64,000 nt of DNA. Origin: Candidatus Zhuqueibacterota bacterium (GTDB lineage: Bacteria > Zhuqueibacterota > Zhuqueibacteria > Residuimicrobiales > Residuimicrobiaceae). The notes below the pieces were generated by a model that searched no databases, was not told the DNA's origin, and saw nothing but the letters and a program-made list of their open reading frames with translations. Location: positions 1-64,000 of the forward strand of contig CAUJEL010000152.1 of the NCBI GenBank assembly GCA_963169875.1. The letters are read 5' to 3'. Made by a program: the position numbers and the translations under genes. Of this stretch, positions 8,180-11,169 are shown one piece after another; the stretch's first letter is position 1, and every line of letters starts with the position of its first letter.

Positions 8180-9439
8180 ATGTTCACGAAACAAGCACTC
8201 GTCTGGTCTGGCATCCTGTTGATGCTGCTTTTGTTGTCCTGCAACAAGGAGGACTCCACCAAGCCCGTCAACCTCGACATGCAGGAAGCGATCAACAAAC
8301 TCACCAAGGAGATTTTGCCGGAGCAGGTATCCAAAAATGCCAACTATTTCTGTCTGCGCATGGATTCTGTGATCCAAAAGGGCGTCGTCATCGAGGAAGC
8401 AATTCCGAAGCAGGATCTGCGCAAAGGAGACGACGAAAGCGCCGTCGCCATCGTGCTGGATGAAGATTCGTATCTCTTTTATCTGGATCTCGAACCGGGC
8501 GCCATGTTCGCCCATGATCTCAAGTACATCATCGTCGGCCAAAGCGGCAAGTCGAAAGTAGTCGCCGCCCAGTGGTGGCCGCTGGTGAACGGCGCCATCG
8601 TGCCAGAATTCCAGAAACAGGTGCCGGAGCCCAGGCATGTCGTCGCAGGCACCGCGGTTTTCGCAAAGCCCATCGGCAAACGCTACCTGTACCGCTTTCC
8701 CGGACAACTTGTTATCAGAAATAACGAAGGGTTCATCGTCGTCGAAGGCTTGATGCCGGAAGAAAATCTTTATGACTGCGTGGTCGATACCTATCTGAAT
8801 TTACTGACTCTCTTTTTAGAGTACAAGAACAACTGTACCGGCGATGTAGAGGTGGAAGGACTGATGGAAAGTCAGGCGGACAATGTGCTCACGGAAATAG
8901 ATAACCAGGTCGCGGCGGGTAGAAATCCAATCACCATCCTGATAACCGCCCACGGCAACTCCAATTATGTGCGCCTCGGCGGCGTCGCCATGTACGCAAG
9001 CCAGTTCCAGGCCAAGATGGCCGCCTATCCCAGCACGCGTTTCAATTTCATCCTCTGCTCCTGCCACAGCGGCAGTTTCATGGACGAGATCACCACACTG
9101 GCCAATGTCTACACCGCCCATACCGCATCGCAGGCGGACGAGAGCGCCTGGCCGGATTGGGACACAGCCTGTGGCCTCAACGACCACAACCCGAGCGACA
9201 CCGGCGCCGAGTGGATGAGTTCGCTGTGCGAAGCGGCCAGCGCCATCGCGGGTGATGCCACTCACTGGGCATCCATTAAAACCATGGCGGCCACCTCCAA
9301 GGTGCCTGTGGCATCGATGTGGATGTACCACGCCTGCCTCGGCGGCATTGGCTTGACTTCTTCGATGGGCCTGAGCCAGGATCTTGATCTGGCCCATCGC
9401 TGCAATTCGGAGAATCCGATGAGTTTCAAGAACTGGTGA
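8180..9439 (+). CDS. Lipoprotein with clan CD (legumain/caspase-like) cysteine peptidase motifs
   Basis: Lipoprotein signal 'MFTKQALVWSGILLMLLLLSCNKED'. 'ITILITAHGNSN' (His258) and 'FNFILCSCHSGSF' (Cys295) match the hydrophobic-block-HG / hydrophobic-block-CxSG layout of clan CD peptidases. Confidence 0.6.
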   Translation: MFTKQALVWSGILLMLLLLSCNKEDSTKPVNLDMQEAINKLTKEILPEQVSKNANYFCLRMDSVIQKGVVIEEAIPKQDLRKGDDESAVAIVLDEDSYLFYLDLEPGAMFAHDLKYIIVGQSGKSKVVAAQWWPLVNGAIVPEFQKQVPEPRHVVAGTAVFAKPIGKRYLYRFPGQLVIRNNEGFIVVEGLMPEENLYDCVVDTYLNLLTLFLEYKNNCTGDVEVEGLMESQADNVLTEIDNQVAAGRNPITILITAHGNSNYVRLGGVAMYASQFQAKMAAYPSTRFNFILCSCHSGSFMDEITTLANVYTAHTASQADESAWPDWDTACGLNDHNPSDTGAEWMSSLCEAASAIAGDATHWASIKTMAATSKVPVASMWMYHACLGGIGLTSSMGLSQDLDLAHRCNSENPMSFKNW

Positions 9440-9617
9440 GTGCTGCTCCCGACTCGCATTGTTAGACGGGTAACAAATCCTTCCAGCAGCCCGTATATGA
9501 ATATGAAATGGATGCCTGCGCCAGGGATGGAAGATCTTCCCGGATGAACGAAGGATGTTACTTCCAGACCTGCGAGGCAGGACTGCGAGTCAATCCAAAA
9601 AGAAACAGGGAAACAGC

Positions 9618-10112
9618 ATGATGAGAAAAATTATCCTCCTGGCAGGCATACTCCTGGCAAGCATAATGGTGATCATTTCCTGCAAAAATGTGGCGGATCC
9701 CACACACCGGCAAACCGACTTGCAATTGGTCGAAAAGGCCATTCATAACAGCATCGGCTGGGCCAAGAACAAGGACATACAATTACTCTACAGCGTCATT
9801 GCCAATGACAGCAATTTCTGTGAAGTCCAGCCAGGCAAGCGGGTGGTCAAGGGGTTTGATAATTTTAAAAAGGGCGAAAAATTCTGGATGGATCCCCGTT
9901 TCAAGGCAGTCCGCTATGAGATCAGCGATTTGATGATTAATCTCTCCAAAAGCGGCGATGTCGCCTGGTATTGCTGCAAGCTGGATGACATCAACGAGTG
10001 GGAAGGCCAGCCCACCAATTGGGAGAACACGCGCTGGACCGGCGTGCTGGAGAAGCGCAGTGGCAAGTGGGTGATTGTGCAGATGCATTTTTCGTTTGCC
10101 AGTGAGGAATAA
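9618..10112 (+). CDS. Lipoprotein with SnoaL/NTF2-like domain
   Basis: 'MMRKIILLAGILLASIMVIISCKN' lipobox; 'AIHNSIGWAKNKDIQLLYSVIANDSNFCEVQPGKRVVKGFDNFKK...GVLEKRSGKWVIVQMHFSF' is typical of the NTF2-like/SnoaL_3 fold. Confidence 0.75.
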   Translation: MMRKIILLAGILLASIMVIISCKNVADPTHRQTDLQLVEKAIHNSIGWAKNKDIQLLYSVIANDSNFCEVQPGKRVVKGFDNFKKGEKFWMDPRFKAVRYEISDLMINLSKSGDVAWYCCKLDDINEWEGQPTNWENTRWTGVLEKRSGKWVIVQMHFSFASEE

Positions 10113-10597: not shown

Positions 10598-10882
10598 CTA
10601 TATCAGGAGTTTTTTTGAATGATGAACAGCGAGTATAGCGATCGTATCCATATCAACATCTATTTTATGGACTATTCTATATTGTCCTTTGATTATTTCA
10701 CGAATACTCTCATCTGAAAATTCGGGGACAATTCTGCCCAAATGGGGATAATCACTCAACTTTTGAACTGATTTTTTTAATTCACTGGTCCAATCAAGCG
10801 CGGCTTTCGGTTTGTCCTTTGAAATATATTTAATTGTATCGATCAAATCCCTTTGAGCACCTTTTGAAAAAACAATCTTCAT
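10598..10882 (-). CDS. parE: RelE/ParE-family toxin
   Basis: 'MKIVFSKGAQRDLIDTIKYISKDKPKAALDWTSELKKSVQKLSDYPHLGRIVPEFSDESIREIIKGQYRIVHKIDVDMDTIAILAVHHSKK'. ATG at 10882, preceded by a GCGAGGA ribosome-binding site. Confidence 0.88.
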   Translation of the reverse strand: MKIVFSKGAQRDLIDTIKYISKDKPKAALDWTSELKKSVQKLSDYPHLGRIVPEFSDESIREIIKGQYRIVHKIDVDMDTIAILAVHHSKKLLI

Positions 10883-10893
10883 ATGTTCCTCGC

Positions 10894-11169
10894 TCAACTT
10901 AACATTTGATCGATCTCTTTAAATACAGAATCAACCGGGACAGTGCGTCCTTCCCGGTAATCTTCAAGACCAAGCGTGATTTTTTTCATAAATTCTATTT
11001 GATCCTGCATCTCTTGGTATTTTTCTGCGTCCATAATCACAGCAGCACTCTTGCCATGTTGAGTTAAAATGATGGGCTTTTTATGAACACTGATTTCTTC
11101 AAGGTACTTTTTAATATTATTGCGAAAATCAGTCACTGAAGTAATGTTTCGGATGTCAATGTTGTACAT
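10894..11169 (-). CDS. Phd/YefM-family antitoxin
   Basis: 'VTDFRNNIKKYLEEISVHKKPIILTQHGKSAAVIMDAEKYQEMQDQIEFMKKI' is Phd/YefM-like; lies immediately upstream of the ParE gene. Confidence 0.88.
   Translation of the reverse strand: MYNIDIRNITSVTDFRNNIKKYLEEISVHKKPIILTQHGKSAAVIMDAEKYQEMQDQIEFMKKITLGLEDYREGRTVPVDSVFKEIDQMLS

Follow-up and report, generated by a model that had tools for sequence, protein, structure and literature searches.

A predicted lipid-anchored C13-type cysteine peptidase with an undescribed N-terminal module in Candidatus Zhuqueibacterota

The window, that is, the whole stretch of 64,000 nucleotides analyzed here (contig CAUJEL010000152.1, assembly GCA_963169875.1), contains a gene whose product is probably an envelope-anchored lipoprotein; its C-terminal half would be a C13 peptidase (clan CD), and its N-terminal module most likely a regulatory prodomain, an inhibitor or a folding partner of the enzyme. 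The protein is predicted to be a divergent bacterial C13 peptidase rather than the founder of a new peptidase family. Export, lipid anchoring and the presence of a C13 domain are well supported predictions from the sequence. The features of the gene are listed in Table 1.

Table 1. Coordinates of the features assigned to the C13-type peptidase gene in the window.
Feature	Position	Strand	Basis
C13-type cysteine peptidase gene, 419 aa, exported (putative)	8180..9439	+	ORF; PF01650 above cut-off; ortholog with low dN/dS
Type II signal peptide and lipobox (...LLLLSC)	8180..8242	+	Sequence; Cys21 invariant in the ortholog
N-terminal module, residues ~31-152, motif FAHD..YI....G....AQWWP..NG	8270..8635	+	Profile searches of 82 genomes; hhalign
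Linker, residues ~153-183, PIGKR(Y/F)LYRFPGQLVIRNNEGF	8636..8728	+	Motif identical in the ortholog except for one position
C13 / clan CD catalytic domain and C-terminal tail, residues ~184-419 (predicted)	8729..9436	+	Pfam match to residues 250-326; PDB profile matches
Catalytic His258 codon (TAHG), predicted	8951..8953	+	Invariant in five aligned proteins; aligns with legumain HG
Catalytic Cys295 codon (SCHSG), predicted	9062..9064	+	Invariant in five aligned proteins; aligns with the legumain catalytic Cys

Gene, export signal and selective constraint

The open reading frame starts with an ATG codon, and the gene is present in one copy in its own genome. The three elements of a bacterial lipoprotein, namely a signal peptide, a lipobox and a conserved cysteine, were found at the N-terminus (LLLLSC21), and the lipobox lies where the earlier note on this DNA had placed it. 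The predicted lipidated residue is Cys21 (codon 8240-8242). It is retained in the ortholog from the metagenome-assembled genome UBA2214 (locus L002), in which the lipobox, FIDC, is atypical, with Asp at the -1 position.

In a search reaching close relatives, this ortholog, 76% identical, was the sole full-length relative detected. Whole-protein relatives were also sought in phages, plasmids and viral contigs, and none were found; the NCBIfam and PADLOC searches gave no match. Overall, the two orthologs differ by a dS of 2.4 and a dN of 0.16, which indicates strong purifying selection on a real gene and argues against gene decay. The most conserved part of the protein is the catalytic core (residues 224-349), with a dN of 0.06.

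The next gene (9555-10112, +) has a lipoprotein-like N-terminus, as noted earlier, and encodes a SnoaL_3 domain (PF13474, E 4e-16). A functional link between the two genes was considered and rejected: no equivalent of the SnoaL gene was found downstream of the UBA2214 ortholog among the listed ORFs of at least 120 aa, so the SnoaL-like lipoprotein is probably unrelated to the protease. Further along, at 10598-11169 (-), two adjacent small ORFs resemble, by eye, a RelE/ParE-type toxin and a Phd/YefM-type antitoxin.

Membership of peptidase family C13

The Pfam model Peptidase_C13 (PF01650, curated gathering cut-off 22.8 bits) matched the window protein over residues 250-326 with 27.5 bits (E = 2.8e-6) and the UBA2214 ortholog over residues 215-326 with 31.1 bits. 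The PDB search with the single sequence returned a plant legumain alone (E 0.32). With a three-member profile (A5), 28 chains were matched (best E 1.9e-5), 27 of which were legumains, asparaginyl endopeptidases, related ligases or GPI transamidases; in these matches the HG and C-x-x-G motifs were aligned with those of legumain and GPI transamidase. A five-member profile of the catalytic domain reached an E-value of 5e-7. The earlier assignment to clan CD was thus right and the family is C13, so that the accompanying view of a protein outside any recognised family is not supported.

The predicted dyad residues, His258 within ITILITAHGN and Cys295 within FNFILCSCHSGSF, are separated by 37 residues, all three details being as first described. 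Conservation of the dyad in homologues had been proposed as a check: neither residue is lost in any of the five proteins bearing the module, among which identity falls to about 16-22% (alignment A9). When the five divergent catalytic domains were aligned, just nine columns were invariant, and His258, Gly259, Cys295 and Gly298 were among them. The earlier proposal, an exported and lipid-anchored protein with the His-Cys dyad of clan CD, is supported by this conservation and by the alignment with legumain and GPI transamidase. The AlphaFold2 model of the full protein, built from a two-sequence alignment, had a pLDDT of 41 and, at this low confidence, an alternating order of strands and helices that would be plausible for the caspase-like alpha/beta/alpha fold of clan CD; Foldseek with this model gave no meaningful match.

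The protein resembles legumain (C13, PF01650) in being exported, in the HG and CxSG motifs located on predicted strands, and in an alignment that runs on through NVY...TAS....ES. It differs in its lipoprotein anchor, in its N-terminal module and in the confinement of the PF01650 match to the core. Legumain ends in an activation peptide and an LSAM prodomain of ~110 residues; the tail of the window protein (residues 350-419) is shorter, and no PDB legumain match reaches it, though divergence could hide one. The Asn/Asp pocket of legumain requires Arg44 and His45 on helix alpha1, together with Ser216 and Asp231 (PMC4357240). The segment of the window protein matching alpha1 (residues 184-222, the exact alignment being uncertain) contains neither Arg nor His, which makes specificity for Asn at P1 doubtful and another specificity likely. 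The catalytic subunit of the GPI-anchor transamidase provided the best single match of the A5 profile (9ub7_C). Unlike this subunit of an ER membrane complex, the window protein is a predicted bacterial lipoprotein, and no partner subunits were seen.

Bacterial C13-like proteins are not exotic in the phylum: PF01650 matched in 12 of the 82 genomes at E <= 0.001, and in 10 of these the match was above the cut-off. A separate conserved PF01650 family was observed in other genomes of the phylum (L006, L007, L010, L011 and L014; 41-84% identical to L006). Its members keep GHG and have Ser or Ala at the position of the catalytic Cys (SASG/AASG); a conserved HPLLDDNGDG motif and an apparent coiled coil come after it. 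They are possible pseudo-C13 proteins. The motifs YYSGHG and DACFSGGSQ.GM occur in caspase-like proteins (L009, L012, L013 and L015) that are conserved in several families of the phylum.

The N-terminal module and its relatives

The N-terminal ~230 residues had been described as unfamiliar. This is real, with the refinement that roughly 115 of these residues form a recurrent module, for which the Pfam search gave no match. The module was found in five of the 82 genomes of this one phylum, in four architectures, and a clan CD peptidase domain was fused or adjacent to it every time. The profile built from the window and UBA2214 modules had a single further match among the 82 genomes, in genome G068 (E 1.3e-5; E-values of the module searches are per genome). 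Extending the profile with this sequence added G025 (E 1.6e-5) and then G072 (E 1.5e-8), and the iteration converged at five genomes. As a non-circular check, the profile of the window, UBA2214 and G068 modules was compared with that of the G025 and G072 modules using hhalign, which gave a probability of 95% (E 3.7e-8) over 100 columns. AlphaFold2 on the module by itself gave a pLDDT of 38.

A single lipoprotein contains both the module and the peptidase in the window and in UBA2214. G068 instead encodes the module as a separate protein of 159 aa with a signal-like N-terminus and no evident anchor of its own; 10 nt separate its stop codon from the ATG of a following C13 gene, with a ribosome-binding-like AGG in between. 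The C-terminal domain of this C13 protein resembles an outer-membrane (OMP) barrel, with 27.9 bits against a Pfam cut-off of 28.7. The locus (L028:1598-4340, -) therefore consists of the small module gene followed by an unusual protease-barrel fusion. In G025, the module belongs to a protein of 769 aa, where it follows an N-terminal region and precedes a C13-like domain (22.3 bits, just below the PF01650 cut-off); the protein ends in a Por_Secre_tail. The module is fused in the same way in G072 (L052, G072:C156), where a similar sorting tail continues in another frame, so this gene copy is frameshifted or broken, or else misassembled. Its catalytic domain scores slightly higher with C14 than with C13, and neither score reaches the cut-off. 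The relatives appear to be built for the cell surface, judging from the barrel-like domain in G068, the sorting tails in G025 and G072, and the lipid anchor in the window protein. With hhalign, the catalytic domains of the window protein and its UBA2214 ortholog had no significant match to those of G025 and G072; the suggested link between the two pairs rests on the common module, domain order and motifs. The plasmid matches of the G025 protein were all general caspase-family proteins.

PepSY domains are prodomain or inhibitor modules of peptidases, and a strand of the G068 module, YIFIDANTGEYEV, is reminiscent of a PepSY end. The relationship has no significant support: the module had no Pfam match to PF03413, and the hhalign probability was 12-37% over about 22 columns, so this identity is not supported. 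The linker between the module and the catalytic domain might, speculatively, be a processing site. A literature search of incomplete coverage turned up neither bacterial C13 lipoproteins nor the module.

Predicted function and alternatives

Peptidase activity is predicted from the conserved dyad, in which His258 would be the general base and Cys295 the nucleophile, with exposed proteins being cut. The module would regulate the peptidase or assist its folding, covalently in the window protein and three relatives and in trans in the fourth; we infer a role as a secreted prodomain, inhibitor or chaperone. As a tentative extension, which we hold to be somewhat short of an even bet, the FAH/WWP module may define a family, not described before, whose members are exported and act specifically on C13-like clan CD peptidases as prodomains or inhibitors, either covalent (in lipoprotein and sorting-tail forms) or free and encoded immediately upstream (G068). 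The logic of such a dedicated family would parallel that of gingipain prodomains or staphostatins.

Gingipains are exported with a T9SS sorting tail. The inhibitory prodomain of gingipain (C25) is situated at the N-terminus (PMC4357240). The G025 and G072 proteins are similar, by analogy only, in having an export signal, an N-terminal region, a clan CD catalytic domain and a C-terminal sorting tail. They differ from gingipains in that no Pfam C25 or C25-propeptide match was obtained, and the window protein is lipid-anchored and has no sorting tail.

A possible reading of the module, though a rather doubtful one, is that of a substrate-recruiting or adhesion domain merely accompanying surface proteases, which would be compatible with the C13 assignment. 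In favor of this reading, all the relatives look exported or surface-displayed, and G068 retains the module as a protein of its own. However, it is always paired with a protease and always comes first, and the G068 form is small, free, devoid of an evident anchor and encoded immediately upstream; an inhibitor or chaperone therefore fits better than an adhesin.

The GPI transamidase and the plant asparaginyl ligases are transpeptidase or ligase members of the same family, C13. It is accordingly conceivable, but improbable, that the catalytic domain works as a transpeptidase or ligase, attaching or trimming cell-surface proteins, rather than as a hydrolase. The anchoring of the protein in the membrane would suit this activity, as would the GPI transamidase as the best A5 match (E 1.9e-5) and the peptide asparaginyl ligases among the weaker PDB matches of the five-member catalytic-domain profile. 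Nevertheless, C13 motifs do not separate ligases from hydrolases, no substrate bearing a sorting signal was identified, and one of the relatives carries its own Por_Secre_tail, which makes it cargo itself and not evidently an enzyme of sorting. A pseudo-peptidase, with the fold kept for binding and a dyad that turns over no substrate, is very unlikely: the Cys-less C13 homologues of the phylum (SASG or AASG replacing CxSG) indicate that degenerate forms are tolerated, but His258 and Cys295 persist throughout the five module-bearing proteins despite their divergence, and the core has changed least.

A C13 peptidase governed or assisted by its N-terminal module thus remains the preferred interpretation. 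C13 peptidases have been studied mostly in animals, plants and parasites (PMC4357240), and little has been written on the bacterial ones. Being small, single-copy and exported, a C13 protein of this kind would be a tractable model of how the legumain / GPI-transamidase fold works when the prodomain and S1 pocket of the eukaryotic enzymes are missing. Should the module regulate the enzyme, its separate version in G068 would permit a direct test with two purified proteins. The enzyme family itself is known; the novelty resides in the module in front of it, and the pairing of a C13 peptidase with this undescribed module, possibly regulatory and possibly new, places the protein modestly above the ordinary.
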